Of a stretch of DNA of 64,000 nt, positions 5,724 to 52,891 are shown piece by piece. Position 1 is the first letter of the stretch. Every line of letters begins with the position of its first letter. Made by a program: the position numbers and the translations under genes. Below the pieces are notes generated by a model that did no database searches, was not told where the DNA came from, and was given only the letters and a program-made list of their open reading frames with translations. Origin of the DNA: Gautieria morchelliformis (lineage: Eukaryota; Basidiomycota; Agaricomycetes; Gomphales; Gomphaceae); NCBI GenBank assembly GCA_015179125.1, contig WHVA01000115.1, positions 62,001 through 126,000 of the forward strand. Reading direction: 5' to 3'.

Positions 5724-7636
5724 ATGGTCTCTCCAACTATGCTTCCCGTGCAGTTGCGCACATTCATTCCTGACAGCCAATCTGCGGCACTATCTGCTGG
5801 TACGATAATTACGCTAGATACAGGATGCTAAGCTATTGAAACCGAATCCCGTAATATTCAGCGGGCGCCCTTGCCTTCGTGTGCTTCGACATATTGCTCA
5901 CATTGGACGATGAGGTATACCTCTGCTTCTCATGTTTATTGTAGAAATTGGGCCTGAGTCTTGCGTCCTTCAGGTAGCTCTTGTTTGGAAGTCAGGCGTT
6001 TTTCTATAGCGTGCGCTGCAGTGCACTGACACCAGAGCTGCCAGAGCACCGTCATCGATCATAAAAGGATGCTATATTACGTGCCGATACCTAGGGCTTC
6101 TGAACCTTTTGTAAGAAGGGTGCATTTCGCCTTCAATCAAACGCGAACTAATTTCAGCCAGATTGACGTTCATAGGTAGGATCACTCGATTCTGGGGTCG
6201 CACACTATATTGATTCAACAAAAGTTTATCTGAGCCATAACATAGCTAAAGCTGTAAGTCCAACCGTACCCCCTCACATATCAACTATCACATTCCACTG
6301 ATACGCAATAGTTGTCCGTATTCGATTTGCTTCCAGTATAATCCAATAACGTTTAACTGTCATGGCAGGTGTTCCGCTTGGAAGTGGTATTTCTGCCTGT
6401 ACGTTTTTCTATATTACAGCTTACAAGGAAAATCAACACTATTTCTCAGAATCGTGATTGGGAGCTCATTGGCCTCCTGCAACTTCTTGCTGGCGCTGCG
6501 GCTGGACAATTTATTCCGCAATACTAAGCATTGTACGCATAGTACAGGTGCTCCTCATCTTCACTTACACACCTCTTGTCACAGTTCGCATGTTTTTGAT
6601 CGTCCTTTACACAAGTTGAGTTTCCTCTAACTCGTTCGTAATCTGTTAGTCACCGGCGTGAAATGATTTAAGGTGCATTCGCGGTACGTCGCTGCGCCAA
6701 TACATGTCTCAATGATAGCTCATTATAAGGTATATATACTTCAGGCAGAGGCGGCGCTTGTGTCTCTTTTCGCGGCCCTCAGTCCCCTGATGCCTGAACA
6801 GCAACCTAAACAACTGTTAGGATGCCCGTTCAACGTTTCTCGGGCACATACCCCCAGCATTACACTTACGTGAGCCATAGTCTCGCGATTGAAATTACCT
6901 CTCATGTTTTAATACTCCAACCTATAGGCTATTTGAGTTGGTTTTGACTTGTAAGTCAAGTTATGATGTCTGACACTGGATCTAACTCGGTGAACTTGAT
7001 TTCTTTATGGAGGTGTATACTTCTGTCTTGCGTTATATAAATTTATGGGCCATATGCGAGAGCGGTCGAATATGGTCGGTTACCGCACCATCCGAGACAG
7101 TGGATCGATTACCTCTGTGCTTTCCCTCATGCTTCGGGATGGTTTACTTTTCTATGCAATGTGAGCAACCATTTTTGTTTGCGCAACCATGTTCTAATCC
7201 TTATTTCAGGATTTTTGGTGATAAACTATTGACCTGCTGAAATATAATCCTTGTCTAACGAGTGTCCTCTCGTTTAGTCACAATTTTCGTGACTGGAATG
7301 CTGTTTTGGGTTGGAACGCACGCCCTCGCGGGAATACCGTGAGTCTCCGCAGGTTAGGTCCGCTCCGCAGTTGTTTGTGCTGATATCCTCTGCGATTTTA
7401 GGTGGCTAGTTGCATGTTACTCAGTTTCTGTATGTGGCTAGGGTTGCGTCTAAGTTCTCATTTATGTACCATTTTCTCAGGGGTCCCGCCTCGTGCTCAC
7501 GCTCCACGGTAACCCGAAGGATGCAATGGGTATATATGAACAGGGTACCGAGCTCCTCGTCCAGCAACCACGGCGACTTACAAATGCCTTCGAAGAAGGA
7601 GCATTGCATACGGGCACAGCTCCTACAGGTGAGTAG
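5724..7636 (+). CDS. DUF6533 multi-span membrane protein, copy A
   Basis: The DUF6533 signature is clear after splicing. The first transmembrane part ends FDILLTLDDE at about 5870-5919, the next exon gives VALVWKAP, and a following exon gives CRYLGLLNL. Further on are a hydrophobic segment near 6750, the pair LYKFMGHMRERSN and LRDGLLFYAM at about 7040-7160, and a C-terminal exon beginning GSRLVLTLHGNP at about 7480. The LLRDG-type motif near the end is typical of the family. Suggested introns include 5800-5861. The acceptor at 5860-5861 is chosen because it removes the stop just before it. Start taken at 5724 (MVSPTMLPV). Exons between about 6160 and 6720 are not resolved, so integrity is uncertain. 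These proteins are basidiomycete-specific, with several predicted transmembrane helices and no known function. Confidence 0.65.
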
Positions 7637-8839: not shown

Positions 8840-10384
8840 ATGCTTCACTTCAACGTTCTCCTCATGACAACGCTTTTTCTTACCTTGTCTTCTAATGCCT
8901 TGCCAGTGGCTCACGAGGTCAGTCGCTTTTTTTGTGTACTTGCAAGTGACACACATAAATTTTTTATTCCAGGTGGGCGTAGATGGGGCGCATCACCAAT
9001 TTGGACGTGGTGTAATTAACTCCTTCATAGTTTTTCTCTCTTTTTCGTTCTGACGTCCCAACAGTGGCTGCCTGGTATTGAGCCTAGGCGTGGAAAAGCC
9101 CCGCCGAGCATTCCGAAGTCGCCACCAAAAATAACGACTCCAAAAACGCCGCCACCAGAAATAACGCCACCAAAGCCAACGCCCCCCAAAACAACGCCTC
9201 CAGCAACAACGCCACCAGACATAACGCCACCAAAAACAACTCCGGAAAGGACCACTACAGAGTCGCCTTCCACCCACGTCTCGCCCCCTACTCCCGTCTC
9301 GGTGTCACCCCCTGCCTCCCGGTCGTCTTCCTCAGAGTCCACCCACGTCTCACCCCCCACCCCCGTCCCGGTGTCATCCTCTACCTCCCAGTCGTCCACC
9401 TCAGAGTCCACCCACGTCTCACCCCCTACCCCCGTCTCGGAGTCACCCTCTACCTCCCAGTCGTCTACCTCAGAGTCCACCCACGTCTCACCCCCTACCC
9501 CCGTCTCGGAGCCACCCTCTACCTCCCAGTCGTCTACCTCAGAGTCCACCCACGTCTCACCCCCTACCCCCGTCTCGGAGTCACCCTCTACCTCCCAGTC
9601 TGCCTCAGAGTCCACCCACGTCTCACCCCCTACCCCCGTCTCGGAGCCACCCTCTACCTCCCAGTCGTCTACCTCAGAGTCCACCCACGTCTCACCCCCT
9701 ACCCCCGTCTCGGAGTCACCCTCCATCTCACCCCCTACCACCGTCTCGGAGTCACCCTCCATTTCAGCATCGCCTTCCAACCACTTCGGATTCCCTACTA
9801 TCGTCCCGGAGTTGCCCACCATCACATTGCCTATCATACCCCCTACCACTGAGTTGCCTGTTCCAACCGTCTCAACAACGAGTGAAAATGCAACGTCCAC
9901 TGACACGTCCACCGACACATCCAACAACACCTCCACCTCCACCTCCACCTCCACCGACACGTCCACCGATACGTCCACCGACACATCCACCGACACCTCC
10001 ACCGACACCTCCACTGATACGTCCACCGATACGTCCACCGACACCTCCACCGACACCTCCACCGACACCTCCACCGATACGTCCGACACCTCCACCGACA
10101 CTTCCACCGACACCTCTCCTGCGTCCGCAGATACGTCCTCGACGTCAACCGACACATCTGCTGCGTCCACAGATGCATCATCGACGTCAACCGACACCTC
10201 CGCTACATCCACAGACGCCTCGACCTCAACCGACACCTCTGCTACGTCCACAGACGCCTCCTCGACGGCAACCGACACCTCTAGTACGTCCAGCGCCACG
10301 TCTTCACCTGGTGACGGCGCCGGATCTGCTAGGGTCGCGAACTTGAGGGGACGTGCCCTTAAGAATCGGGCAATTATTCAGTAG
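8840..10384 (+). CDS. Secreted Pro/Ser/Thr-rich tandem-repeat protein, 478 aa
   Basis: Three exons, 8840-8917, 8973-9011 and 9065-10384, join in phase 0 (introns GTCAGT..CAG and GTAATT..CAG). Exon 1 encodes a signal peptide: MLHFNVLLMTTLFLTLSSNA, then LPVAHE. A Pro/Thr/Lys-rich stretch follows, based on TPPKTTPP. Next come about six repeats of 23 residues (69 bp) built on STHVSPPTPVSESPSTSQ, then a long STDT repeat region and a Ser/Ala/Thr tail. The C-terminus (RGRALKNRAIIQ) is polar, so I see no GPI-anchor signal. The composition suggests a heavily O-glycosylated, mucin-like wall or secreted protein. An antisense frame spans the same DNA but has no signal peptide or splice logic. Confidence 0.8.
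9268..9770 (+). repeat. 69-bp coding minisatellite
   Basis: About six head-to-tail copies of a 69-bp unit encode STHVSPPTPVSE plus a Ser/Thr spacer. Copies differ by a few substitutions. One lacks two codons and the last is shortened, which fits unequal crossing-over that preserves frame. Confidence 0.8.
9893..10130 (+). repeat. 12-bp coding repeat (Ser-Thr-Asp-Thr)
   Basis: Tandem units of TCCACCGACACC and close variants encode STDT repeats. Third-position variation (GATACG versus GACACC) occurs in blocks, a sign of segmental expansion. Confidence 0.8.
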
Positions 10385-13841: not shown

Positions 13842-15757
13842 ATGACATGGCCTCAAGTTTCACCGATGGCGGCAGGGTTCATATCTGAAGGTCAAAACGC
13901 GGCAGTGTCTGCTGGTACGCTACTGTCACTCTTGAACGCGTCACCCACAGGGTACTGAGGTGTCGACGGAATATTTAGCGGCCGCCTTATCACTGGTTGT
14001 TTTCGACATCTTGCTCACATTGGACGTAGAGGTATGATAAGCCTCACTCTGAGTTGTTTATAAACCTTTGACCTGAAGGACTGCCCGTTCAGATAGCCCG
14101 TGTCTGGAAGTCAGGCCATTTCTTTGCAATGCTAGAGGGTCCCCTGATCACCCATATACCAGAGCGCCGTGGTCAGCCACAAAAGTAGGCTATCTGATAT
14201 GCCGATACCTAGCGGGTTTAAATCTGGTGTAAGCAATAGGCATTTTACTCTAGGCGAGGACTTACGGTCAACCAGATTGACGTTCTGGGGTGGGATTATT
14301 TATTTCAGAGACGAGGTCGCACACTGTATTGACTCTTGACAGTTTACTCAAGCAATGTAACTCAATCTGTAAGTCCGTACCCTGTGAATATATCCCTGAT
14401 ATTAACCGTCACCTCGAAATTTTACGTGTATTAGTTGTCGGTATCTTGATTTTCTTCGACCCGTCGAATAATGTTTACTAGCTAAGCTGTCATGGCAGCT
14501 GTAACGGTTGGAAGTGGTATTTCTTCATGTGGGTTTTTCGGTGACATTATTTACGAGCAAAGCCAACACGACTTCAGAGTAATTGTTGGGAGTGCCTTGG
14601 CATCCAGCAACTTCTTGCTGGCTCTACGCCTCGACAATCTATTCCGCAACACCAAACACTGTGCGCTTTCTGCAGTTCCTCACATTCGCTTACAAACACT
14701 CTCTTGGCACAGTTCGGTTGTTGATGATCATTCTTTATACATGTTAAGTTTCGTCTACCCTTTCCATAACCTGGACCTAATAATGATATAATCGAAAGGC
14801 GAAATCTTGGTATATCGCCCATTTAATCCACAATACTAGCAACTTATGATGTGTTATCCAGGCACAAGCAATAATCCTTTGTCTCCTTGCGGCCCTTTCT
14901 CCCGCGGCCCAACCGTCAGGACCAAGCAGCTGGTTGGGATGTGTGTTTTTGATACCGACAGCACACTCACTCAGCTCTATACCTTCGTGAGTTATGGTCA
15001 CAGGCTTTCACTACCTCACGGGAAACTCAAGGATCTATACTACACAGATCGCCTGAATTGGGCCTGACCTGTAAGCAAAGTGATGAACGCTTCTAAGCTT
15101 GAGCTGAATCACTGTAGGTATTTATTTCGGTCTTGCATTCTACAAGTTTTTAAGACATCTGCGGGAGCGGTCAAACATGATCGGCCATCGCGCTATCAGA
15201 GAGAGCGGGAACGTCATTTCTGTTTTTACGCTCCTCCTTCGGGATGGGGTACTTTTCTATACTATGTGAGCGCCCAGTTATTCTCCCAGATTCAAATTCG
15301 TAATCTTTATTCAGGATTCTTGGTAATAAGCTCCTGAAAGTCAAGACTTCAGGCTGTTTTCTGATGAATATCTTCTCGTATAGCCACGGTTGTAATAACT
15401 GGGGCCCTCTTCACAACTCAGAAGCATGCGCTGGCGGGACTCCCGTGAGAAACCTCAACACCATATTCCTTGACTTTGATTTCTCAGATGGTTGTTTATG
15501 CTGATATAGGTGGCTCGTTGCATGTTATTCAATCGCCGTAGGCGTGGCCTTTTGTTTGTTTGGGTATTTTTTAAATGGTTTATTAGGGATCCCGAATTGT
15601 CCTCACGCTTCACGGTAACCCACAAGATCCATTGGGTATATATCGGAAGGGTACTGAGATGCGGGTCGACCCATCGCGGCGAACTCTAAACACCATTCAA
15701 GTTGAAGCTCTATCGGACGGGGAGCTTGGAGTTGTATACTCGGACGCGGTCAGGTAA
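13842..15757 (+). CDS. DUF6533 multi-span membrane protein, copy B
   Basis: The start is MTWPQVSPMAAGF at 13842. After a first intron beginning GTGTCT, the protein reads TEYLAAALSLVVFDILLTLD, the DUF6533 opening helix. Two more introns give IARVWKAPWSATKVGY and then LICRYLAGLNL. Later exons contain GIYFGLAFYKFLRHLRERSN, the family motif LLLRDGVLFYTM at about 15235-15265, and a last exon from GSRIVLTLHGNP to the stop at 15755-15757. It matches copy A segment by segment, including intron positions, so the two are paralogues in direct orientation. The middle exons (about 14290-14850) contain in-frame stops in simple readings, and I could not settle whether these are introns or damage. Confidence 0.65.
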
Positions 15758-21202: not shown

Positions 21203-21430
21203 ATGGGCCAACCAACTGAAGTCGATGTTATCGTTGCTGGGTAGACACCCAACCACCTTTGACCTGTTGTTTTGGCTGACGTGAATCGATTCATCTTCAG
21301 AGGTGGTCCAGCAGGTATGAAGTCGTCGTCACCTTTTCCATCTCGTATCACCTACCCTCTTCCCTAGGATGTGTTGTCGCAGGTAGACTGGCCTACGCCG
21401 ACCCCAATCTACAAGTTATGCTCATTGAAG
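21203..21430 (+). pseudogene. GMC oxidoreductase, N-terminal fragment
   Basis: Three exons, 21203-21240, 21301-21314 and 21368-21430, encode MGQPTEVDVIVAGGGPAG followed by CVVAGRLAYADP and QVMLIEG. This is the FAD-binding Rossmann motif GxGxxG with the acidic residue at the end of the second strand, as in aryl-alcohol and methanol oxidases of the GMC family. Introns are short and canonical. A donor follows at 21431 (GTAACC), but I find no further GMC exon either before the mariner element (21558) or after it (28212 on). The gene is thus cut after about 38 residues and cannot make an enzyme. The segment 21431-21557 reads better on the minus strand, so the GMC fragment was probably already truncated before the transposon arrived. 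Confidence 0.75.
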
Positions 21431-21557
21431 GTAACCAACTTCGGTTTCTCAAGCCCTATAGCACGCTCGAACTTATCCACAGCATAATGGAAACGTTGTT
21501 GATCCAGTAACAGTTTGCCGCTGTGTTGTGCCATAATCATTATGCCATCCTCAGTTA

Positions 21558-22046
21558 CAGCTGTTTCGGGTACATAGGGTGGAGTCTGAAATACATGCCG
21601 CCCGGTGCCGCTCGAAAAGCTCAAGCTGTATCTCCACAGCAATTGATGATTAAGGGCTGGTACCTTGTATATATTCTGTACTATGTAGTAGCTACCCTCT
21701 GATATATAAAACCTGGCTTATTCTGAGTTATTGAATATTTGGATAATTTCACTTATATGCATCATTATGCACTCAAATTCTTTCAGTAAGGTCTGTAACT
21801 TTCTCAGATTATAGTAATATACATGTATAAATGTTGGAAATAGAAAACAATGATGTAATCTCCAGGTTATGGAAGGGGGGAGGGGTGCATGTCTGTTTGC
21901 CTTCTCCCAGCCTTTTTAGCCTTCTACATAGCCAAAGCCTCAGGTTTAAGGACTTAAATATAATATAACCTCTATATATACTCTAATTAACATGATGTGA
22001 CACTATATTTCTTCATCTGCAAGTCTTGCCGGCATGATGTCATGAC
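21558..22046 (+). repeat. Left terminal inverted repeat
   Basis: Matches 27723-28211 in reverse complement. Identity is near complete over the outer 430 bp and lower over the inner 60 bp. The inner end leads straight into the transposase promoter. Confidence 0.9.
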
Positions 22047-22053
22047 ATCATGC
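22034..22053. repeat. Perfect 20-bp palindrome at the inner edge of the left inverted repeat
   Basis: CATGATGTCATGACATCATG is its own reverse complement and contains the bZIP-like half sites TGACATCA. The right repeat has a degenerate version (CATGATATCGTGAC). It sits about 55 bp upstream of the transposase ATG. Confidence 0.6.
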
Positions 22054-22061
22054 GCGACCAC

Positions 22062-22071
22062 GTCACGTGAC
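22062..22071 (+). promoter_or_regulatory. GTCACGTGAC palindrome upstream of the transposase
   Basis: An E-box-type palindrome (CACGTG core, as bound by bHLH factors such as Cbf1 or USF) 35 bp before the ATG at 22107. The same 10-mer occurs before the accessory gene at 27698-27707, outside the well-matched part of the inverted repeats. Confidence 0.5.
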
Positions 22072-22106
22072 AGGCGTTACATGTTGTACACGTACTTGTG
22101 CCATCG

Positions 22107-23330
22107 ATGCCTAGATACATCCCAGAACACCTACGACAACGACAAACGTACTCAGAGGATCTACGAAAATGTGTTATATATCAGAGGTATACACGCGAAA
22201 AGAAGATTGCTGATATCGCAGTGGATCTCAACATGTCGCAACGCGTCGTCGAACACATTCTGCAACTATGGCGCACTACCGGTGAGGTTATGCCACCGGA
22301 ACCCGGCAAGAAGGGGAAAAGGAGAAAAATCATGGATCCTGAGGAAATGCAGGTAAGCAAGCAGCGAACCTTGATGATACCGGATTATGCTGACTCTTAT
22401 CTGGTTTCTCTCCTAGTTCCTAATTCCGCTTGTAGAACACTTCCCGGACCTCTACCTCGACGAAATACAGGGTGTCATGCAGCATCTATATGGAATAACT
22501 GTTGGAGTTAGCACTCTCTGGGATACAATGACAGAACTCGGGCTCACACGGAAATGAGTATGTCCTTTTTTTTCTTGTGATTCTTCAACTTATTTACTCC
22601 CTCGTTAAGTTAAAGGTTGCTGCGGAGCGAAATGAAGACCTCCGACAGGTTTTCTGTTTCCGAATTGGTCACGAAAGCCCCAGCCGTCTTGTATTCATTG
22701 ATGAGAGCCGGATCGATTGCCGCACCACATATCGCTTGAACGGATGGGCGCAGAAAGGGAAAAGAGCAAGATCAAAGGCTAGGTTTGTGCGTGGTACAGG
22801 GTATGTCTCCTTCCATGTCTTACTTTCCTCTAATATTTACATCAGTGTAGGTACTCCCTTCTACCCGCCCTCTGTGATGAGGGGATAATTTATTCCAATG
22901 TCTGCGAGGAATCATATGACGCTGACACCTTCCTGACATTCATCACGAAGCTCATGCCATATCTGAACCCATGGCCCCAGCCGCGCAGTGTCTTGGTGAT
23001 GGACAACTGCGCCATTCACCATGGTCCTGAGGTTGCCGCAATTTGCCAAAAACAGTAAGCAACCCTAACAAATTTCCCAAGTATTCTCAAAAATATCTGT
23101 TATGCAGTGGTGTGCGCCTCTACTACTTACCACCATACTCCCCCGACATGAACCCGATTGAGGAGGCCTTTTCTTACCTGAAGGCATACCTTCGCCGCCA
23201 TGGCGCAGAATTTCGGCAAGCGGTAGATGGCAAAGATGAGATGGCTATTTTGTTATTCCTTCATACTGCTATGTCTTCAATATCAGCTGAGCACTGTAAA
23301 GGTTGGATGACACATTCAAGGTACTTGTAA
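22107..23330 (+). CDS. Tc1/mariner DD34E transposase
   Basis: Five exons: 22107-22352, 22417-22557, 22610-22800, 22851-23054 and 23108-23330 (335 codons with stop, normal for Tc1-like transposases). The N-terminus holds helix-turn-helix sequence (IADIAVDLNMSQRVVEHIL, then LWRTTGEV). The catalytic triad is visible: FIDES (D1), VLVMDNCAIHH (D2) and SPDMNPIEEAF (E), with 34 residues between the second D and the E. The linker PPYSPDMNPIE is classic. All four introns have good GT and AG signals and keep phase. One oddity: exon 2 ends in AAA TGA immediately before the donor at 22558, so codon 129 is a stop. Either this copy is inactive by one change or that splice differs. It should cut and paste the element at TA sites by binding the inverted repeats. 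Confidence 0.85.
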
Positions 23331-23450
23331 ATGTACACATCTGTCCTATCCCTGTACCAGCAGCTAGTGTCAACACCAGTATACCAATCAGTTTGGTCAA
23401 ATATTTTGACTATGCTATTCCCACAGCTCTGCACTTTTTGGGTGATGTGA

Positions 23451-23670
23451 GTGATGCAGGGGAAATAATGGAAGCCATGAATGAAGTGGAAGTGCAGGGA
23501 TGTGGGTGATGCAGGGGAAATCATAGAAGCCATGAATAAAGTGGAAGTGCAGAGATGCGGGTGATGCAGGGGAAATAATAGAAGCCATGAATGAAGTAGA
23601 AGTGCAGAGATGCAGGTGATGCGGGGGAAATAATAGAAGGCATGAATGAAGCAGAAGTGCAGAGATGTGG
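23451..23670 (+). repeat. Four 55-bp direct repeats
   Basis: Units begin at 23451, 23506, 23561 and 23616. Each reads GTGATGCAGGGGAAATAAT, then a GAAGCCATGAATGAAGT-like middle and an AAGTGCAGAGATG end. They lie between the transposase stop and the 9-bp array. A partial unit recurs inside the array at about 23736-23768. Confidence 0.85.
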
Positions 23671-24565
23671 GTGATGCGGGTGATGCGGGTTGATGCGGGT
23701 GATGAGGGTGATGCGGGTGATGTGGGTGATGCGGGTGATGTGAATGAAGCAGAAGTGCAGAGATGTGGGTGATGCGGGTGATGCGGGTGATGCGGGTTGA
23801 TGCGGGTGATGAGGGTGATGCGGGTGATGTGGGTGATGCGGGTGATGCGGGTGATGCGGGTGATGCGGGTGATGCGGGTGATGCGGGTGATGCGGGTGAT
23901 GCGGGTGATGCGGGTGATGCGGGTGATGCGGGTGATGCGGGTTGATGCGGGTGATGCGGGTGATGCGGGTGATGCGGGTGATGCGGGTGATGCGGGTGAT
24001 GCGGGTGATGCGGGTGATGCGGGTTGATGCGGGTGATGCGGGTGATGCGGGTGATGCGGGTGATGCGGGTGATGCGGGTGATGCGGGTGATGCGGGTTGA
24101 TGCGGGTGATGCGGGTTGATGCGGGTGATGCAGGTGATGCAGGTTGATGCGGGTGATATGCGGGTGATGCGGGTGATGCGGGTGATGCGGGTGATGCGGG
24201 TGATGCGGGTGATGCGGGTGATGCGGGTGATGCGGGTGATGTGGGTGATGTGGGTGATGTGGGTGATGCGGGTGATGCGGGTGATGCGGGTGATGCGGGT
24301 GATGCGGGTGATGCGGGTGATGCGGGTGGGTGATGCGGGTGATGCGGGTGATGCGGGTGATGCGGGTGATGCGGGTGACGTGATGCAGGTGCGGGTTGAT
24401 GCGGGTTGATGCATGTGATGTGGGTTGATACGGGTGATGCGGGTTGATGCGGGTGATGCGGGTTGATGCGGGTTGATGCGGGTGATGCAGGTTGATGCAG
24501 GTGCGGGTTGATGCGGGTTGATGCATGTGATGTGGGTTGATACGGGTGATGCTGGTGATGCAGGG
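23671..24565 (+). repeat. 9-bp G-rich minisatellite array, forward
   Basis: About 95 tandem copies of GATGCGGGT with occasional 10-bp units (extra T) and variants GATGTGGGT and GATGCAGGT. GGG runs recur every 9 bases with 6-base spacers, the pattern that can fold into G-quadruplexes. The long Asp/Gly, Met-Arg-Val and His/Pro frames across it follow from the 9-bp period and are not genes. Confidence 0.9.
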
Positions 24566-24579
24566 GAAATAAAACCTTC

Positions 24580-25538
24580 TGTCACCTGCATCTGCATCAC
24601 CATTCAAAGAAAATTCACAGCAACTTGACAGAGGATAACATGCTCCCTGGCAACACATGTCAACTTCACCTCCACAGAAGTCTCTACATTACCCAAAGAC
24701 CCACAGCTGCTACTGAGGCACATCCTCATGCCCAGACCATGACAGTTGGTGCATGGATTGATGCTGATTCTCATGCCAAAACCAACACCATGAACTGCAC
24801 CCTTCCTTGAACACATGGCATGCAGTGATGCGGGTGACAGAAGCTTTTATTTCCCCTGCATCACCCGCATCACCCGCATCAACCCGCATCACCCGCATCA
24901 CCCGCATCAACCCGCATCACCCGCATCAACCCGCATCACCCGCATCAACCTGCATCACCCGCATCAACCTGCATCACCCGCATCACCCGTGTCACCCGCA
25001 TCACCCATGTCACCCGTGTCACCCGCATCACCCGCATCACCCGCATCAACCCGCATCACCCGCATCACCCGCATCACCTGCATCACCTGCATCACCTGCA
25101 TCACCTGCATCACCTGCATCACCTGCATCACCTGCATCACCTGCATCACCTGCATCACCCGCATCAACCCGCATCACCCGCATCAACCCGCATTAACCTG
25201 CATCACCCGCATCAACCCGCATCACCCGCATCAACCTGCACCTGCATCAACCCGCATCACTCGCATCATCACTCACATCACTGCATGCTATGTGTTCAAG
25301 GAAGTGTGCAGTGCAGTTCATGGTGTCAGTTTCGGCATGAGAAATCAATCCATACGCTGACTGTCATGGTCTGGGCATGAGGATGTGCCTCAGTAGCAAC
25401 TGTGAGTCCATTGGGTAATGTAGAGACTTCTGTGGCAGGGGAAAGGTCGACATGTGTTGCCAGGGAGTGTGTTAGCCTCTGTCAAGTTGTTGTCAATAAT
25501 GGCCTTTTCTTTGAATGGTGATGCAGGTGATGCAGAAG
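24580..25538. repeat. Inverted-arm structure enclosing a second array
   Basis: The left arm (about 24580-24838) and the right arm (about 25276-25538) are diverged reverse complements. Shared blocks include CACCATTCAAAGAAAA, AACTTGACAGAGG, CCTGGCAACACATGTC, AGAAGTCTCTACATTACCCA and GCACATCCTCATGCCCAGAC. They flank the reverse-oriented minisatellite. The block could fold into a very large hairpin, or it may be a remnant of a small inverted-repeat element nested in the mariner. Confidence 0.75.
24839..25275 (-). repeat. 9-bp minisatellite array, reverse orientation
   Basis: Tandem ACCCGCATC units with a block of ACCTGCATC variants at about 25075-25155. This is the same satellite as at 23671-24565, in opposite orientation. 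Confidence 0.9.
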
Positions 25539-25708
25539 TGCAGTGATGTGGGTGATGCACAGTACTGTGTTGAATTTTGCCAATGGCACAAAATATAGAT
25601 TGATATGAGTACCACTCCTAATCATCTATGCTGTTCTAGTGGTGCCTAGCCTTCTTGGACCCCTTCTGCCCACCTCCCACTCCAAAACCATACCTCTGGC
25701 CAGCCTCT

Positions 25709-27626
25709 TCAAGCTGCTCTATCAGAAACAATGCATCTACTACTTTGAGAGGATATCTTCAGGGTCTCCAGAGACATCCATGCAATGCGTGTAAGGGTGA
25801 TATTGAGGCATTCCTCAGCTTCAAATCTGCTGCGCAGAAACTCCCACCTGGTGTAATGACTGAGCTCTTGCTTGCCCTTCAACTCCATGAGCCAGTCCTG
25901 AATGGTTGGTACAACCTGTGCATGAGTATCAGCATTACCAGCGGTACTCATTGTGGATGCCGGCGAATGAGATCGTTTTGCGGGTTGTGAGGCAGCGCGA
26001 AATGCCTGAAACACTTCCGGTGGGAAGTTGATATTGATGGCAGGGGTGGGGGCGGGCTGTTGCAGGGGCTCAGTGCTAGCGTACCTCGTTCCACCGTGAT
26101 GTGTGTGGTCAGATGCGGCCGGGTTCGCGCTGTAGTGAAAAAATCTGAAATACTCCACATTTGGTGGCGTGTTGAGATCAACGCCCGGTTTATGATCCAT
26201 CTATTGACAAATAGGTGAGTATACACATGTTATGGAAAGAAAACACAAAACTATACCAATTCTAATACCCACACCAGCTCCCCTTCATTGCTGATGACCT
26301 TATGATGCCCATTGAGGGCACGCGCCATGCAAATTGACCCGGCGTGCTGAGCGCAAGTCCAGACGTCGCGCAGCTTCTCCAGCTGCGCTTTGTATCTGTC
26401 CAAGTTTGTGGCATTGAGGGCTCGCCTGTCCACGACTTCAGGTTCGACCGGTTCTTTCTGCGAAAGGAACGGGTTGACGAGTTCTTTCTTTTTAGTCTTT
26501 GGTTTACCTGTGGTGCCGGTCTGTGCTTTGACCGCCTCTTCTAAAAATCGAAAGAACTGTGAATTAGAGTATATTAGTTTGAATCAATGATGAGAAAGAA
26601 ATAAAAGCTGACCTTGGGGGGAAGAACGATGTCGATACAGGCTTCCACGCCCCTCTTTGCCACCTGATTTACCCACTCGGCCTTCAAGGCCATCCAGTCG
26701 TCCTCAGTCTCCAACGCAAAGCAGCGCTTTGCTGGGTCCTTGTAGAAATGAGTTACGAGGCCGATCCTTTTCTCTTCGGAGATCGTGTACAGACCGAGTA
26801 CGAAGTGGAGCGTCCCCTTCACCTCATCAAGAGTGCTCATCGGATTGACGAGCTGCGTTTGATGAGCAATCACCCCGATTTGGTTACGGAACGGTATAAG
26901 AAATTTCATTTCTATGAAAAAATTAGTCAGTAAGCATAAAGTAAGAAAAGAAAAAAAGGAAACACAAAAGAAAGAAAAATATGCACGGGCAGGCAAAGGA
27001 TCCTTTGCCACTGCATTGGCTTTGCTCACAGCCTTGCCCTTCTTCTTTGGAGCTGGAGGTGGAGATGGTGAGGGTTCCGTCATACCGTCGCGATCATCAT
27101 CGCTGCTAGACACTCCCTCCTCATCCACATACTCGATATCATCATCACCGATGTCGAGTATCTCAGCGTATCCCGGACCATCGTTCGCAATGGGGATGTT
27201 GAGCTCGTCTTCATTGTCCTCGGGCACCATGCTGAGGTGCGTCTTGCCTGCGATATCAGCAGCCTGGTGTGTTTTCGTGGAGGTGGGTTCTTTGGCTGAG
27301 ACAACAGTACTGGATGCTCTGGATGTGGTGGAGAGAGTAGCGGTGGGGACTTTAGGTTCGGCGTCGGCCCTGGATTTGGCCGTTGAACGCGGTTTTGACC
27401 CGGCCTCAGTGGACGCATTGATGGCGCCATTCCTCTTTGATGGAGGAGGTATCTTGATAGGAGGTATGCTTCCCTCACGCATTCGAATGGAGGGAGTACG
27501 GCTGCGCCTGCCTTCGATGATAAGGGCAGTGTCAAGTGTGTCGTGCTGACGAGTTTTGGGGTTGTTTTCAGGAGGCGGCTCCAAAGGAGTGAGAGCTTTA
27601 GCAGTTTTTTTCTTGATACCAGCCAT
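25709..27626 (-). CDS. Accessory gene of the mariner element, 572 codons, function unknown
   Basis: Four exons on the minus strand: 27626-26987, 26911-26613, 26556-26269 and 26200-25709. All three introns are canonical and in phase. The protein starts MAGIKKKTAKALTPLEPP, continues as a long low-complexity region with an acidic patch (residues about 140-185) and a Pro/Lys stretch (PSPSPPPAPKKKGK), then a folded-looking middle (HFVLGLYTISEEKRIGLVTH, then CFALETEDDWMALKAEWVN), a basic linker and a C-terminal region (TIQDWLMELKGKQ). The last resembles a small helical domain I remember from many uncharacterised Agaricomycete proteins. Another frame downstream reads EQLEEAGQRYGFGVGGG to a stop at 25636, so the true C-terminus may be reached by an intron or frame change I could not place. 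It starts about 97 bp inside the right inverted repeat and faces the transposase. No transposase motif. Confidence 0.7.
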
Positions 27627-27697
27627 AATGACGCGATTAGAATGAAGCTTAGTATGTGTTGAACGCAGCGATGGAGGTCACTACGTGGCGCGTAGCG

Positions 27698-27707
27698 GTC
27701 ACGTGAC
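27698..27707 (-). promoter_or_regulatory. GTCACGTGAC palindrome upstream of the accessory gene
   Basis: Identical to the palindrome before the transposase, here about 71 bp upstream of the ATG at 27626. It suggests that both genes answer to the same bHLH-type activator. Confidence 0.5.
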
Positions 27708-27722
27708 GGCGGTCACGCAACT

Positions 27723-28211
27723 GTCACGATATCATGCCGGCAAGACTTGCAGATGAAGCAAGGTACTGTCACATCAATGTAATTAGGGTTTATATAGAGG
27801 TTATATTATATTTAAGTCCTTAAACCTGAGGCTTTGGCTATGTAGAAGGCTAAAAAGGCTGGGAGAAGGCAAACAGACATGCACCCCTCCCCCCTTCCAT
27901 AACCTGGAGATTACATCATTGTTTTCTATTTCCAACATTTATACATGTATATTACTATAATCTGAGAAAGTTACAGACCTTACTGAAAGAATTTGATTGC
28001 ATAATGATGCATATAAGTGAAATTATCCAAATATTCAATAACTCAGAATAAGCCAGGTTTTGTATATCAGAGGGTAGCTACTACATAGTACAGAATATAT
28101 ACAAGGTACCAGCCCTTAATCATCAATTGCTGTGGAGATACAGCTTGATCTTTTCGAGCGGCACCGGGTGGCATGTATTTCAGACTCTGCCCTATGTACC
28201 CGAAACAGCTG
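27723..28211 (-). repeat. Right terminal inverted repeat
   Basis: Reverse complement of 21558-22046. It ends CAGCTG followed by TA at 28212-28213. Confidence 0.9.
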
Positions 28212-28213
28212 TA

Positions 28214-28628
28214 AATATCACTGTTTTCCATAATTTATCAGTATTACTGCCACTGAGAGAATATTGATTAAACCAACTTTTGATTAAAGTTTCTACTTGT
28301 TGGGGTCTTGACAGTAAAAAGAATAGGGGCCGTGCAAGCCGCATAGTACGTGTCGAATGCAGCCCAGTCTTGCTGTGATTTGGCGCGGCACAGTGGATCA
28401 CTAGCACTGACAGCCAGTGGCAGATAACAACTGCATGTCCTGGCAAGGTATAACAGCAGCGTCAACCTGCATATGCCTGGTAGCGTTGTGTTTTTCTACT
28501 ACTATTAGTTATACTATATTAGGAAATATCACATCACATAATCATTGTGGGTGCTGCGGGCGTCCATACATCCTAGTGGGTGCTATGGTTATTTGAGGGC
28601 ATCATTGGGTTAGTGGGTCCATGGGTGT
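28214..28628. other. Flank of the mariner insertion
   Basis: No gene recognised with confidence. The minus strand at about 28465-28268 has a coding-like stretch (KSQQDWAAFDTYYAACTAP). Minus-strand 21642-21409, on the other side of the transposon, has another (IMIMAQHSGKLLLDQQRFHY). The transposon may have landed in an old minus-strand coding segment, but I cannot name it. Confidence 0.3.
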
Positions 28629-28767: not shown

Positions 28768-29265
28768 TGTAAGGGCAACCCTGGCTAGTCGTGGAGATCA
28801 CACTACCACACAACTGACAAGGGGAAATCCAAAGTATGTATAAATGAACAGAGCATACAAGAGAGGGGGTTCTCACCTGACAAGGGGAAATCCAAAGAGA
28901 AAAGTCTAAGGACCCCCAATGTCAGCGAGCCCGTATTATACTACGCTGCGCAGCCAGGGACAACGCTTGGCACCCGCCATCAACCCTGCATCCCCCTGAC
29001 CCTTGATCGACCCTTGATGCCACCTATTATGCGAGTCGCTTGATTTCCGACACTGTTCCGGGGCGGAAGTCGGAAATTGGAGTGGAACTGGCAAGGCGAA
29101 CGGAACTGGTGGAAGTTCTCCCAGAAGCGGAATTGTTCCCGAAAGCGGATGCGGAGATGGAATCGGAACCGGAAGCGGAGTCGGAAATGGAGTCGGAACT
29201 GGGTGTGGTGTCGGAACTGGATGTGGTGTCGGAACTGGAAATGGAAAACAGGGTGTCCCCTGACA
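28768..29265 (-). repeat. Chromovirus LTR (3' LTR of the element)
   Basis: 498 bp. Contains GGAACCGGAAGCGGAGT-like Glu-coding repeats near the internal edge and one more 18-bp unit (GGTGTGGTGTCGGAACTG) than its partner. Confidence 0.9.
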
Positions 29266-32200
29266 TCACCCCCCCTCTAGCGTGCTGCGTCCTCGAAGCA
29301 CGGGACACAAGGGATTGAAATGCCAGCGAGCGGATTCGGCGAGGGGCACCTGGATGTGTCCTGTAGAACTCCCGGAGTTTGTCAGGAGCGGAAACATCTT
29401 GCTCCGGGACCCACGAATTCTCCTCGTACCCATACCCTTCCCATTTCACGAGGAATTGGAGTCGTCCTCGCACAAACCGGCTGTCCAGGATCCGTTCTAC
29501 CACGTAGTGCTCTTCCCCATCTACAATTTCTGGCGGAGGTGGCGGATGAGCCTTCCGACGTGGAATTGGGTCCTCAAGCATAGGGAGTAACTTCACCACG
29601 TTGAAGACGGGGTGGAGGCGGGACATGGACATCGGAAGTCGGAGGCGGTATGCATTCCGTCCAACCCTCCGCGTCACCGTGAAGGGCCCAAGGTAGCGGT
29701 GGGCAAGCTTCTGCGAAGGGCGTGTGGTGCGGATGTCACTTGCATCTAGGTACACCTTGTCTCCAACTTGGTACTCTGGGGCAGGAACCCGGCGTCGGTT
29801 GTAGTACCTTGCCATGTCATCCTTGGCCTTCGCAAGGGCCGACTTGGCTTCCGAAAGGGTGGAGTCCATGCGGTCTCGGAACTCATTGACCGTCTCGAGT
29901 CGGGAGTCAGCCTGGCGTGGTTCGAAGCCCATCCGCGGGTGTCGTCCGGAGTCAAGCATGAAGGGAGTCTGTTGCGTGGCGGAATGGACATGGTTGTTGT
30001 ATTGGAATTCCGCCAGCGGAAGTAACTCATCCCAGTCATCCTGCCTCTCATTGACAAAGAGGCGGAGATATTGCTCCAACTCCTGATTGACCCGTTCCGT
30101 CTGTCCGTCACCCTGCGGATGGTACGCTGTGGTGGTAGCCAGCTTTATGCCGAGCAGGCGGTAGAGCTCCCGAGTCAGTTCCGCGACAAACTGCGGACCT
30201 CGGTCGGAAACGACTTGCTTCGGGAGCCCATGCAACTTCCAGACATGTGCAAGGAACAGGCGGGCCGCTCCGAGGGCTGTGATCGTCGTGTGCGTCGGAA
30301 TGAAGTGGGACACCTTGCTCACCGAATCCACGACGTTCATGATCGCGTCGTAGCCATGAGACTCTGGGAGTTCAACGATGAAGTCGACACTGATGGTGTC
30401 CCAGCGGGATTCGGGAATCGGGAGCGGAACAAGTTCTCCGACGGGCGGACGTCGTTGCGCTTTGGTTCGGAGACAAAGGTCACACGTCTTCACGTACTGT
30501 CCGATGTAGCGGGACATCTGAGGCCACCAGTAATTCCGAGCCACTAACTCCAGCGTCTTCCACCTGCCAGCATGCCCAGCGACCCGTGTGTCATGGTGCT
30601 GGGACACGATGCGACGGCGTAGGTCCGCCCCACCCGGAACATAGACCTTGCCTCTGAAGTGGAGCAGTCCATCACGTTCCGACCATTCCGCTGCCCGTAC
30701 AGACCGTGAGTGCCCCTTCCGGAGTTCCTCCACTGCCTTCACCACCGACTCCTCCTTCTCTCCGTTCCGGTACTGCCTCCGGATATCCCGGAGCATTTCC
30801 GCTTCCGCCCCAACTGCAGTTACTCCTTCTAGGGCACGGATTGCAAAGAGACTTGGGCGGAGCAGTGTCATATCCGCGTTGTCTCCACTTCCGCTTCCGT
30901 GATCCGCGCGGCGGGATAGGGCATCGGGCTTGCCCATGGTGCGGCCGGGGCGGTGGTGGAGCATGAAGTCAAACCGGGACAGGTGTAGGGACCACCGTGC
31001 TTGTCGTCGGTTCAGCTTCTTAGCCGTGCGGAAATACTCGAGGTTCTTGTGGTCTGTCCAGATCTCAAATGGGCATAGAGCACCCTCGAGGAAGTGTCGC
31101 CACTCCTCCAGCGCCCGGATGATTGCCAGCATCTCCTTGTCATGGATCTCATAGTTCCGCTCGACCGGACTAAGGCTCTTAGAGAAGAAGGCAATCGGAT
31201 GCCACCCCCCACCATCTTCCGATGACTGCTGTGACAAGACCGCTCCGGTAGCTGCGTCGGAAGAATCCGCCTCGACTCGATAAGGGCGAGAGTCGTCGGG
31301 AAAGATCAGGACCGGGGCGGAAGTGATCAGCTCCTTGAGTTTGTCAAAGGAAGTCTGTTCCGGCTCTCCCCACCGCCATCCAACCTCCTTCTTGGTGAGG
31401 TCGAAGAGGGCACGGGCGTGGCAGGAGAAGTCCTTGATGAACCGCCGGTAGAAATTGACAAACCCAATGAAGGACTGGACCTCCTTCTTGTTTCGCGGCA
31501 CGGGCCAATCCGATACACCGGAAACTTTGACTGGGTCCATTTCCACCTTTCCTTCCGACACAATCACCCCAAGATACTCTATCCGCGTCCGCTCAAATTC
31601 GCACTTTTCCGGCTTGAGACACAGGTTGTACTCCCGGAGCCGTTCCAGCACTCTCCGCACGATTTCCCGATGTTCGGACATTGTTTTCGTGAAAATGAGG
31701 ATGTCATCGAGGTAGACGCAGACAACCCCTTCTGCTATCATGTCACGGAAAATGTCATTCATCATCGTCTGGAATGTGGCGGGACTGTTGGTGAGGCCAA
31801 AGAACATGACCTGTGGCTCAAAGAGTCCTCGATTGGTGCGGAATGCGGCCTTCCACTCGTCTCCCTCCCGGATCCGGACATTGTTGAAGCCCCAGCGGAC
31901 ATCCAGCTTAGTGAAGTACCTCGCCCCGCGGAGTTGTGTGATCAGTTCGGAAATGAGTGGAATGGGGTACCGGTTCTTGATCGTGATCGCATTCAAGGCC
32001 CGGTAGTCCTGCACAAGTCTGAGCGAGCCATCCTTCTTCTTGATGAAGAACACCGGAGATGCCATGGGTGACTTGGAGGGGCGGATCCTCCCTGTACGGA
32101 GGTTTTCCGCAAGGAACGCATCGAGCTCTACCTGCTCCTTGGGTGACAGCGGGTAGACCTTGCAGTTGGTGGGCTTTGACCCAGGCTCCAACTCGATGGC

Positions 32201-33185
32201 GTGGTCCCACAGCTTCCGTGGAGGCAGGGTATCAAACGACTCCTTGGAAAAGACGTCCTCGAACTCTCGCAGGTACTCCGGAATTTCCGCCTCTACTCTA
32301 TCATGCCTCTTGGAGGCTTCAGCAAGGCGTTGCGAAATATTTCCGGTGGCGCGGATGTGTTCCGCTTCCGGTGGAAGGTTTACGTACAGCAAGCGCTCCC
32401 CTTCCGCCAGAGTGTCTTCCGGGCGAGTCGGATGACGTTGGAGTCGGAATCGGAATCGGAATCGGAAGTGGGATCCGGTTCAAATTCCGCTTCCGAGTCT
32501 TCTTCTGCAAGCAGTGGATGGGGGCCAGAACGACATGTCTGTATGAGCCGTTCGGTCTTCCGCTGCTCCTGGCGCTCCTTCCGCAGTTCCGACCTGCACA
32601 TGTGACACTTGGCTGGACATCGACTCATCAGTACCTTCCGAGTCTGCCAATTGATCTCCGGGTTGTGCTCCTGAAGCCAGGTAAACCCGAGGATGATGTC
32701 CTGCTTCCCCAGGCTGGTGACTGCAAAGGAAGTGCGTTCTGAGTGTCCATCGTAGCGGAGATTGTGTCTACTATCTCCGTGATGGACCCTGCCTCATTGG
32801 GGCTTCCATCCACATTGAACACCGGGATTGCACGTTGCAACTTCCGCGTGGTCAGTCGGTTCCGTTCCACATAGTCCCGGTCCATAAACTGACCAGTGGC
32901 CCCGCAATCGACAAGGGCGGGTCCGGATTTGACTTCCGCCGTATCTGTCGTCTGGATCTCCACCTTAATGACTAGTGACTTGGGGCCAGGGGTGGCAGCA
33001 ACAACATAGCGCTTCGGAAGGCGTCTCTCCCAAGGGCGGATGCGGGATGGATGGGGTGTCAGATTTGGTTTTTGTGTGACTTTATCCGGTGGGTCTGTAC
33101 GAAGTGAGGGGAGTGGGGGCTTTTCATTCTCTACTTCAAGACAGGCAAACCGGTTATGTACAGGCAGCAGGGGCACACATCTCAC
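29027..33185 (-). CDS. Chromovirus pol (protease, reverse transcriptase, RNase H, integrase, chromodomain)
   Basis: Fossil-element coding region. In order: aspartic protease with ALVDCGATGQF, reverse transcriptase with VCVYLDDILIF, an RNase H domain with YEIHDKEMLAIIRALEEW, an integrase zinc-binding and catalytic region (DTISVDFIVELPESHGYD, DRGPQFVAEL), and a chromodomain (ILDSRFVRGRLQFLVKWEGY) that may guide insertion to particular chromatin. The coding sequence runs into the 3' LTR. It acts in cytoplasmic particles and then in the nucleus. Largely open. Confidence 0.85.
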
Positions 33186-34555
33186 CCGCTGCGTGTCACA
33201 AAATCCGACGCATCTTCCGCTTCCGGTAGACCATGTTCCGCATTTTCGGAAAGCTCTTCCGCAGTGGGCACTCCGTTTATGTCTGCAAGCGCGAGGAACT
33301 CTGGAAGGATCTCGAGTTTGTCCTCTGTGGTCATAAGCCGGATATCAAAGGCTTGGGGGCACTCGCGAGCGTAGTGGCCTGGTTGTCGGCAGCGGAAGCA
33401 GGTGATAGTTCCGTGGCCTTTTCCGCGCATGCGGTCAACATCCATCGGGGCAGGGCCACTCTTCGAGGGAGGAGGGCTATGGTTCCTAATAGGAGCAGGC
33501 GGAGCAAGCATCGGAAATAATTTCCGTGTGGGAATGAATGCGCTTCCGGGTTTTGGCACAGGTTGAGTAGGACGAGCGGAACTGCGTGTCGCGTTCCGAC
33601 TCGTCTCCACGAAGGCCTCATTTGCCTCCCTGTTCCGAGAAACCTTCTGCGCAGCTTGGTACCACCCTTCCGGGTCATCAAAATCCGGAGCTCCATCCCC
33701 AAGCAGCGCAACTTGGTTCTGGAGCGTCGGATCAAGTCCTCGTCGGAATTTGATGACGATCGTCTTGTCGTCGTCATATTCCGCAAGGTCGATGAGCTCC
33801 TGGAAGCGATCGATGTAGTCATCGACCGGATCTTTGGCCTGGTACCAGCTCGTCCCCTCGAGCTTTGTAAGGGCTGTGAGCTGCTCGTTTTTCGGGCAGA
33901 ACTGGTCGGAAAATGTTTTCTCGAACGCGTCCCAGTCCCGGAAGTAGTTCCCCTTGCCCTTTGCTTCATGTCGGATCACCTTGTTTGCAAAACGGGCTGC
34001 ACGGTCCGATTTGAAAAAGGACAACGTCCAGTGAATCCGAGCCTGGTCGTTCGGAAAGAGGTCTCCGACAATTGCGAAGTAGATGCTGCATGTGTTGAAG
34101 AATGCGCGTCCCTTCTCCCGATCTCCGTCAAAGTCCGCCGGAGTTGCGGGTTTGACCTTTGCTAACTTCGCGGACATCCTCTTTTCCACTAGTTCCGCTT
34201 TTCCGAAATCCGGATCGTCCAGCATTTCATTTCCACCACCTTGTGGAATATCTAACTTAGCCAAAATCGCTTGTAAGGCTGTTTCAATCGCGTCGGTCTT
34301 CATCCGGTTCCGCGTCAATTCCTCCTCCATATTCCGAAGACGATCGTCCGGATCCATGTTGGAAGGAGAAATATGGGACGGGATTTCCGGGGTTGGGAGC
34401 TCGACGTAAGAAGAGGGGCTGTCGTACGCTGTATGTGCGGAAGAGGTTGCGATCTCCGAGTCGCTGTCTCCGATTCCGAACGCACCTATGGCGAATGCAG
34501 CGCGCAGTACGACCGCCGGTCCTCTAGGGGAGAGACTTTTCTGCTGTAAGGGCAA
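33182..34555 (-). CDS. Chromovirus gag
   Basis: About 457 residues. Central retrotransposon Gag domain (FFNTCSIYFAIVGDLFPND, then WDAFEKTFSDQFCP) and a C-terminal CCHC zinc knuckle (CFRCRQPGHYARECP). It begins close to the inner edge of the 5' LTR. Gag forms the particle and packages the RNA. Pol follows directly. Confidence 0.85.
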   Translation of the reverse strand: MPLQQKSLSPRGPAVVLRAAFAIGAFGIGDSDSEIATSSAHTAYDSPSSYVELPTPEIPSHISPSNMDPDDRLRNMEEELTRNRMKTDAIETALQAILAKLDIPQGGGNEMLDDPDFGKAELVEKRMSAKLAKVKPATPADFDGDREKGRAFFNTCSIYFAIVGDLFPNDQARIHWTLSFFKSDRAARFANKVIRHEAKGKGNYFRDWDAFEKTFSDQFCPKNEQLTALTKLEGTSWYQAKDPVDDYIDRFQELIDLAEYDDDKTIVIKFRRGLDPTLQNQVALLGDGAPDFDDPEGWYQAAQKVSRNREANEAFVETSRNATRSSARPTQPVPKPGSAFIPTRKLFPMLAPPAPIRNHSPPPSKSGPAPMDVDRMRGKGHGTITCFRCRQPGHYARECPQAFDIRLMTTEDKLEILPEFLALADINGVPTAEELSENAEHGLPEAEDASDFVTRSG

Positions 34556-35024
34556 CCCTGGCTAGTCGTGGAGATCACACTACCACACAACTGACAAGGG
34601 GAAATCCAAAGTATGTATAAATGAACAGAGCATACAAGAGAGGGGGTTCTCACCTGACAAGGGGAAATCCAAAGAGAAAAGTCTAAGGACCCCCAATGTC
34701 AGCGAGCCCGTATTATACTACGCTGCGCAGCCAGGGACAACGCTTGGCACCCGCCATCAACCCTGCATCCCCCTGACCCTTGATCGACCCTTGATGTCAC
34801 CTATTATGCGAGTCGCTTGATTTCCGACACTGTTCCGGGGCGGAAGTCGGAAATTGGAGTGGAACTGGCAAGGCGAACGGAACTGGTGGAAGTTCTCCCA
34901 AAAGCGGAATTGTTCCCGAAAGCGGATGCGGAGATGGAATCGGAACCGGAAGCGGAGTCGGAAATGGAGTCGGAACTGGATGTGGTGTCGGAACTGGAAA
35001 TGGAAAACAGGGTGTCCCCTGACA
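34545..35024 (-). repeat. Chromovirus LTR (5' LTR of the element)
   Basis: 480 bp, almost identical to 28768-29265. Its outer edge abuts the BTB-like gene fragment at 35025. Confidence 0.9.
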
Positions 35025-46251: not shown

Positions 46252-48246
46252 TTAGATCCTCTTCCGCTCCTCGTCCGCTCGCCTCAACGCCCCCCGTAGA
46301 TGCTTGGCAAAGCTGTCCACATGTTGAGCCGAAAGCATCGTGTAGTGCTCGCCATCGACGTCGATCATCTCAAACCTTTCCCCGCTGAACTCCTTCCAAA
46401 TAGACAGTCGGTTTGCCTTGAACTCTTCCCGGGTGCCCATCGATGGCAATGGGATGGCACAGAAAATCGAGGTCAAAGCACCCTCGATACGGCCATGAGG
46501 CACGAAGGTGCGGCCAGTCCGGTTGAGCCCATATGCCACCTTGACCCAACGGATGAAAGCGCCTAACTCGAGATCGAGCTCGACCAGACGGACCTTGTCG
46601 GAAAGAGCGAACAGCCATTGAACCGGGTCTTGTGGGTTAGGGGGTTCGGCGTCCATGGCTGAAACGACTGGGAACTCTGCCTTGATCTCGTCCCGCACGC
46701 GGTCCAAGTCAGAGGAAGTGACTAAGGACAGGAACAATGCGAGGTTCATCAGAACCTCGAACCACGTGAGCTCCTTCATACGCCACTGGATGTGCGGGGG
46801 CAGGTTGAAGACGCCGAACCACGGAACCTCCCTTCCTTTTTCGAGCTTCTTCCCGATTTCGAAGGCGACGGCAGCACCGAAGCTGTAGCCTGCGACGTAG
46901 TAGGGTCCGCTGGGGTACTTTTTCTCGATGGCCTCCACGTAGGTCTCAGCCATCTCATCGATGGTCGCAAACGTCGGGTCGTTGTGGTCGAATCCCCTTG
47001 CGCGAATCGCGTACACTGGCCTGTCGTCCGCAAGGGCCATGGCGAGGGCGATGAACACAAGTACCTCTCCGAGACCGGGGTGCACAAGGAACAAAGGAGG
47101 CTTTGACCCAGAGTCGTTGAAGCAGATCACCGGCTGATATGATGTGTCCTTGTGTTCACCTTGTCCATTTGCCTGAACCAATTCAGAGAGATAGTCGCAT
47201 AGCTCTCCGATTTCGGGGCGTCTAAGCAAGTCGATGGTCGGGATGTCGGTGAGTCCGAGGCGGGACTGGATCAGGTGTTTCAGGCGCAGCAGATGCATGG
47301 ACGAAGCACCGAGATCGAAGATGTTGCTGGAGCGACGGAGGGCGGATTCCTCGATGGTGACGATAGAGGCGACGGCTTCAGCCACGACTTGCTCGATGGG
47401 GTTCAAGAGATCGGTGGGCGACCCATCTCCAGACAGATGGCCGTTCTGGACCTCCAACGCCGCCTGGAGTGCGCCGTAGTTGCCCTGCAGGTAAGACTTG
47501 GTGAGCTGTGTACGAGAGACTTTTCCCAGCGACGTCTTGATGAATGCGGCACGCGGGAGGGGGAGGATGACATGAGGAGCCTGGGAGCAGAATATGGTAC
47601 ACGCCCTCCTAATCGCGCGGTTAGCGGCATCGATGGCGTGCTTCTGCTCGTCAGTTACACCTGCCTCGACCACGACTTCATGTTGATAGAAGACGCCGTA
47701 CGTCTCGGTGTCTGCATCAGCAAGGCGCATCGGGCAAACATACACAAATCCGTGCATAACACCATCGATCTTGGCATCCTCGACGTAGTGCTCGACGTCT
47801 TGAGTAGGATGCTTGACACCGTTGATGTTGACCGAGGCTTTGTCTCGGCCAACGAGGAATAATTACCGTCCGCATCTATCTCTGCCGAGTCGCCGGTGAT
47901 GAACCAGCCATCGTCGGCGAAGGACTCCATTGTGGCTTGTTCGTTTCCATAATAGCGACTGAAGACTGTGGTACCCTTGATTTGCAATTGACCCGCATCT
48001 CCAGGTGAGCAAATGCGGCCGGTTTCTGGGTTCGCCACGCGCATGGCGATGCCGGGAGCGCAAGTGCCCAGCGACAGATACTTGGGAGCGCCGCGCTGGC
48101 CCTTAAAAGGAATCGGGCATCTGTCGTATATGGAGCCAGCGCCTGTCTCGCTCATACCGAATCCGGCCCTCAGGGCATCTCGTGGGCTCCCGAAACGGCT
48201 TATCAAATCTGCGAACGCGATGGCAGTGCTCATGGGCACTGCTTCC

Positions 48247-48628: not shown

Positions 48629-48633
48629 GGGTT

Positions 48634-52878: not shown

Positions 52879-52891
52879 GCTTGAGGGGGCG

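Follow-up and report, generated by a model that had tools for sequence, protein, structure and literature searches.

Can a fungal transposon of the IS630-Tc1-mariner group carry a second gene as a regular part of itself? Tc1/mariner elements typically encode a transposase only, according to passages of PMC12242761, and a locus in the basidiomycete Gautieria morchelliformis puts that description to the question. The locus lies in a stretch of 64,000 nucleotides (contig WHVA01000115.1, positions 62,001 to 126,000), the whole of which was analysed and is called the window here; all positions below are those of the window. It holds a two-gene IS630-Tc1-mariner element with a TA duplication, long and near-identical ends, a DD34E transposase and a spliced second gene that has a copy of the end repeat on its 5' side. 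The reading preferred here, a two-gene cut-and-paste element in this fungus to which the second, accessory gene regularly belongs, is given a probability of about 0.6.

The element occupies 21558-28211 (6,654 bp), flanked by TA and bounded by 489-bp inverted ends. The end sequence CAGCTGTTTCGGGTACATAG has a single occurrence per strand in the window, at 21558 on the plus strand and at 28192 on the minus strand, exactly at both ends, and an independent repeat scan returned arms at 21555-22047 and 27722-28214 (493 nt, 97% complementary). Aligned ungapped, the two 489-bp ends are identical at 472 positions; only six of the 17 mismatches fall in the outer 420 bp, which are 98.6% identical, and the other 11 in the innermost 69 bp. 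The longest exact run common to both ends is 206 bp, far above chance, and a gapped alignment extends the likeness to 22071 and 27698 (518 columns, 95.6%). The TA immediately outside both ends is the target-site duplication of the IS630-Tc1-mariner superfamily, and the terminal inverted repeats are likewise those of the superfamily. An earlier, preliminary description of this DNA had claimed TA-flanked inverted repeats of 489 bp, which the end matches, the repeat scan and the count of identical positions all bear out. The palindrome GTCACGTGAC occurs three times in the window, and two of these occurrences start at position 505 from either end of the element. The parts of the element are as follows.

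21556-21557, no strand: TA target-site duplication, left (sequence match and gapped end alignment)
21558-22046, plus strand: left terminal inverted repeat, 489 bp (repeat scan and end comparison)
22062-22071, no strand: GTCACGTGAC palindrome, position 505 from the left end, upstream of the transposase gene
22107-23330, plus strand: gene for the IS630-Tc1-mariner transposase, DD34E; exons 22107-22352, 22417-22554, 22616-22800, 22851-23054 and 23108-23330, the exon 2/3 junction without a GT donor
23444-23677, plus strand: 55-bp tandem repeat, 4.3 copies (tandem repeat analysis)
23664-24561, plus strand: 9-bp minisatellite GATGCGGGT, about 99 copies, 898 bp, G-rich on the transposase sense strand
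24589-24837, plus strand: arm of an internal inverted pair of about 260 bp, 83% identical to 25269-25529
24858-25268, minus strand: 9-bp minisatellite, complement of GATGCGGGT, about 45 copies, 411 bp, G-rich on the accessory sense strand
25269-25529, minus strand: second arm of the internal inverted pair, 83% identical to 24589-24837
25709-27626, minus strand: accessory gene, 576 codons, with a possible frame shift near 25760; exons 27626-26987, 26911-26613, 26556-26257 and 26200-25712, then the stop
27698-27707, no strand: GTCACGTGAC palindrome, position 505 from the right end, upstream of the accessory gene
27723-28211, minus strand: right terminal inverted repeat, 489 bp (repeat scan and end comparison)
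28212-28213, no strand: TA target-site duplication, right (sequence match and gapped end alignment)

The five-exon model of the transposase gene gives 331 residues. This protein matches Pfam DDE_3 at 1.3e-30 (106.6 bits, cut-off 28.6) and NCBIfam IS630 at 3.9e-45 (154.6 bits, cut-off 100), the best curated family thus being bacterial IS630, and these scores make it a DDE/D transposase of the DDE_3/IS630 kind found in the IS630-Tc1-mariner superfamily. Its catalytic triad (D157, D241 and E276) aligns onto the catalytic residues of two bacterial IS630 transposases from plasmid records, so that it resembles IS630 both in family score and in having D, D and E in register. Bacterial IS630 elements are intron-less and have one gene. 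The 34 residues that separate D241 from E276 are the DD34E spacing of the Tc1 family proper, whereas mariner proper is defined by DD34D and the third residue here is E. By its domain scores and catalytic residues the predicted enzyme is an IS630-Tc1-mariner transposase with DD34E, and it falls outside mariner as strictly defined by DD34D. The name mariner, used in the preliminary description, therefore fits the superfamily and is loose below that level, given the third residue and the best curated match to bacterial IS630.

The relatives of the transposase among plasmids are distant. A tblastn search found 1,062 plasmid records, all below 60% identity, and 50 of them had one place that covers at least 80% of the query; the ten matches listed cover 80-96% of the transposase at 27-33% identity. 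At the N-terminal part, matches to HTH_32, HTH_33 and HTH_23 of Pfam score below the curated cut-offs, and a search of the PDB with exons 3-5 returned only a DNA polymerase (E 0.2) and the Sleeping Beauty transposase (E 0.25). The enzyme had also been described as complete-looking. Its domains are complete and its spacing is DD34E, but past the conserved ...GLTRK at the exon 2/3 junction the frame runs into TGA, and the intron there lacks an initial GT, the remaining three introns being GT..AG. Because of this missing donor, this copy of the gene may yield no full protein.

On the other strand the accessory reading frame is a real gene and not an accident, since it has canonical introns and an open stretch beyond all shuffles. 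All three introns are GT..AG (75, 56 and 56 nt) with 25-30% GC, versus about 53% in the exons, and the longest open stretch in 25710-27700, which crosses intron 1, has 367 codons, as against a maximum of 277 in 500 first-order Markov shuffles. The four exons, the opposite strand and the absence of kinship with the transposase agree with the preliminary description; its 572 codons become 576 with the splice sites used here. Near 25760 another open frame carries on a plausible accessory protein beyond the stop, which may mean that the frame of this copy is shifted near its end. The first 213 residues are rich in P, S and T (65 residues) with balanced charge (30 K/R and 32 D/E) and have two lysine-rich patches, at residues 5 and 194. 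Composition is less biased in the middle and C-terminal parts.

Searches with the accessory protein gave no match above cut-off in Pfam, where three pieces of it returned nothing at E up to 10, and no match in NCBIfam at E up to 1. Its middle and C-terminal part had no match in the PDB (349 residues, E up to 10) or in phage records (347 residues, E up to 1). Matches that were considered and set aside are PMI1_PMIR1-2_C, EAV_GP5 and RPN2_C, all below the Pfam cut-offs at E 0.077-0.2. With the exon-2 piece the PDB returned chains of engineered protein A (best E 7.9e-4, where no stretch passes by itself), a GATOR protein (0.34) and acyl carrier proteins (0.47-1.4), and with the C-terminal piece one nuclear hormone receptor (E 0.59); all of these were judged to be chance, and the exon-2 matches support no fold proposed here. 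The middle and C-terminal parts may be like a large mushroom family with a ubiquitin-like or PB1-like part, a Cys-His part and a SAM-like end, a likeness that is unsupported by any search here, the Pfam pieces being empty at E up to 10. If there is such a family, its members may sit outside mariner ends, which would favour a capture of the gene.

The two genes are convergent, and each starts just inside one repeat, as had been claimed: the transposase begins at 22107, 36 bp in from the inner edge of the aligned repeat, and the accessory gene at 27626, where the distance to the other repeat is 72 bp. The 5' region of the accessory gene is thus the other copy of the repeat that lies upstream of the transposase gene. 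Because the upstream DNA is near-identical and both starts are so placed, copies of one promoter may drive the two genes. On the simplest view, each long end may also serve as a promoter, and the genes may be expressed together.

Between the gene ends lie 2,378 bp, of which about 1.3 kb is 9-bp minisatellite, a feature absent from the preliminary description. On paper, the internal inverted pair can form a long hairpin that encloses the 24858-25268 array. The block 24589-25529, an inverted pair around an opposed minisatellite, looks as if the centre had been flipped by recombination between the arms. Whichever transcript is followed, the first minisatellite array that it would meet is G-rich on the sense strand. 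The G-quadruplex-type pattern covers 701 bases of the plus strand in 23331-24588 and 215 of the minus strand in 24838-25268, with none on the opposite strand of either, while 200 first-order Markov shuffles of each stretch gave maxima of 130 and 99, respectively; elsewhere in the window the pattern covers 151 bases of the plus strand and 24 of the minus strand.

If the accessory gene is a regular part of the element, the transposase would bind both ends, excise the element and reinsert it at TA. Each long end would supply one gene with its copy of a common promoter, transcription would converge, and the two products would be made together. The accessory protein would then be a nuclear one, either a partner of the transposase (an adaptor or a targeting factor) or a guard against silencing, a role that can be proposed only tentatively. 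The opposed minisatellites would keep the two transcripts from colliding and forming double-stranded RNA. The most far-reaching version, a conserved fungal IS630-Tc1-mariner lineage with an obligate nuclear partner, matching end promoters and, between the genes, opposed G-rich minisatellites at which the converging transcripts halt so that RNA silencing is avoided, is somewhat unlikely.

Multi-gene, long-ended elements of the group are already known in ciliates, so that accessory proteins in the IS630-Tc1-mariner group have a precedent, which speaks for the two-gene reading. As described in parts of PMC3464196, Sardine of Paramecium tetraurelia is about 6.7 kb long with 425-bp ends and up to four open reading frames (ORFs), including an IS630-Tc1 transposase and a tyrosine recombinase. 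Sardine and Thon (ends of about 700 bp) are like the present element in their long ends and in combining a DDE transposase with further ORFs, and Sardine also in its length; they differ in the tyrosine recombinase and palindromic ends, the second gene here being a single unrelated one without a Pfam match above cut-off (PMC3464196, same parts). TBE of Oxytricha, a Tc1/mariner element, has three ORFs for a transposase and two accessory proteins of unknown function (passages of PMC12242761 and PMC4724952), and the former source terms accessory proteins in Tc1/mariner surprising. With no Pfam match above cut-off, the accessory protein of G. morchelliformis does not fall under the accessory types of Sardine, Tec and TBE (tyrosine recombinase or zinc-finger/kinase).

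Among fungi, TIR_1 of Pleurotus ostreatus is likewise a basidiomycete element with a DDE_3 transposase and a TA duplication; its ends are 214 nt, a table value of 1.6 is taken as its length in kb, and the relevant passages of PMC4905642 mention no second gene. MarorTcMar-18 of Marasmius oreades, a mariner-type family of 3,972 bp, is longer than a classic mariner and shorter than the present element (excerpts of PMC9674265). Tc1-OP1 of Ogataea parapolymorpha, a fungal Tc1 of 5,659 bp with 169-bp ends, has a large extra region of unknown identity, 'domainX', but is DD40E and has this region fused to the transposase in one ORF rather than as a separate convergent gene; bacterial IS630 elements, at 950-1,250 bp, are far from the present length (both from sections of PMC9977792). 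In mushrooms, rusts and morels, TET/JBP genes occur within several transposon groups of other kinds, and the word 'mariner' was not found in the main text of that source as available (PMC12730594). Among the literature matches listed there was no fungal Tc1/mariner element with a separate second gene, which does not establish its absence from print.

How else could the accessory gene have come to lie between these ends? In a one-off capture, a one-gene fungal Tc1-like element of the TIR_1 type would have taken up a host gene, with the end repeat copied beside it, and the gene would have no role in movement. The known basidiomycete element, with TA duplications, names only a transposase in the passages of PMC4905642, and the window holds no second copy that would show conservation, both of which favour capture. 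The accessory gene starts just inside the repeat as the transposase gene does, however, and the inner edge of the repeat decays gradually, by the mismatches of its last 69 bp, with no sharp junction; these two points are suggestive only, and capture appears unlikely. An origin as a composite, in which the accessory gene came from a second transposon that had entered a mariner-like element or become fused with it, is very unlikely. The rearranged centre, with its opposed minisatellites and internal inverted pair, speaks for such an origin, but the pair of about 260 bp encloses only the 24858-25268 array and not the accessory gene. No pair of inverted 14-mers with up to two mismatches joins 25269-25708 to 27627-28211 (eight shuffles gave 0 to 3), which disfavours a nested element with inverted ends of its own. 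Nor does a longer inverted pair enclose the gene among those listed, which are the top 25 by length out of 893 and the longer ones from blastn, the blastn comparison covering pairs that start outside 23300-25700; the argument applies to elements with inverted ends.

A third view, compatible with every other, is that both genes of this copy have decayed and that it moves, if at all, by the enzymes of other copies. The transposase junction without a donor and the open frame that continues the accessory protein past its stop point that way. Against it, both genes are otherwise open and have GT..AG introns, and the outer 420 bp of the ends are 98.6% identical; the chances are about even. This copy is probably no longer autonomous.

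Several observations weigh against the accessory gene as a regular part of the element. The analysis covers one copy of the element: neither blastn of the element (E 1e-4) nor tblastn of both proteins found further copies or fragments in the window, the only fungal DNA compared. Other tblastn matches there were at E 0.29 or worse, and the two inspected (47.5 kb and 7.4 kb) look like chance. Relatives of either gene were not found in viral or prokaryote contigs, and the plasmids yielded only the distant IS630 transposases. In viral contigs three protein scans gave 5, 2 and 25 pattern-matching stretches, none of them confirmed, and the scans with the end sequence and the transposase motif gave none; in prokaryote genome contigs the protein scan gave 24 stretches, none confirmed, and the motif scan none. 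The accessory protein is without a recognised domain, and single-sequence folds of its exons have predicted local distance difference test (pLDDT) values of 39.6 and 42.7, too poor for use. Past the stop, its transcript would run through about 440 bp, with the 260-bp arm and a wrongly oriented minisatellite unit among them, to reach its G-rich array, and AATAAA/ATTAAA occurs once downstream of the transposase gene (23535) and nowhere in 25201-25711. That the opposed minisatellites serve as a spacer and a brake on transcription is suggested by their orientation alone and is doubtful, chance repeat expansion being the sober alternative.

The DNA around the element contains other mobile and repetitive features. 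The flanks of the element, joined at one TA, give no single long frame, so that an insertion into a gene was not upheld; the left flank (21409-21555, minus strand) has a faint likeness to TOM70 (E 0.35), a possible gene remnant at the insertion site, with no Pfam match. A Ty3/Gypsy element with a chromodomain lies at 28768-35024, about 550 bp to the right; its long terminal repeats (LTRs) are about 96% identical, and the bases shown beyond them do not match as a duplication. A Copia element at 48247-53269 (LTRs 97.6% identical, 5-bp duplication CTTCC) sits between an AMP-binding part (53515-54264, minus strand) and a PP-binding and thioesterase part (46255-47862, minus strand), so that 46255-54264 is apparently a gene for a nonribosomal peptide synthetase-like enzyme split by the Copia insertion. 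The chromodomain Gypsy, the Copia element, the synthetase-like gene and the presence of genes with short introns suggest by themselves that the window is mushroom DNA. At 9020-10381 a 454-codon open frame on the plus strand consists mostly of nested tandem repeats (units of 15, 69, 12 and 42 bp), faces a 450-codon frame on the opposite strand and has no Pfam match at E 0.01. Direct repeats of 67-74% identity, about 8 kb apart, at 5850-7576 and 13967-15682 are perhaps duplicated genes. Scanning the window with Rfam, and for tRNA genes with ARAGORN under the bacterial code, gave nothing.

The start of a gene just inside each long end suggests a reason for the very long ends that some such elements retain: these may also work as promoters, and both would therefore have to stay alike. 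A fungal lineage with a conserved second gene, if true, would be a tractable system outside the ciliates for the function of such a partner.

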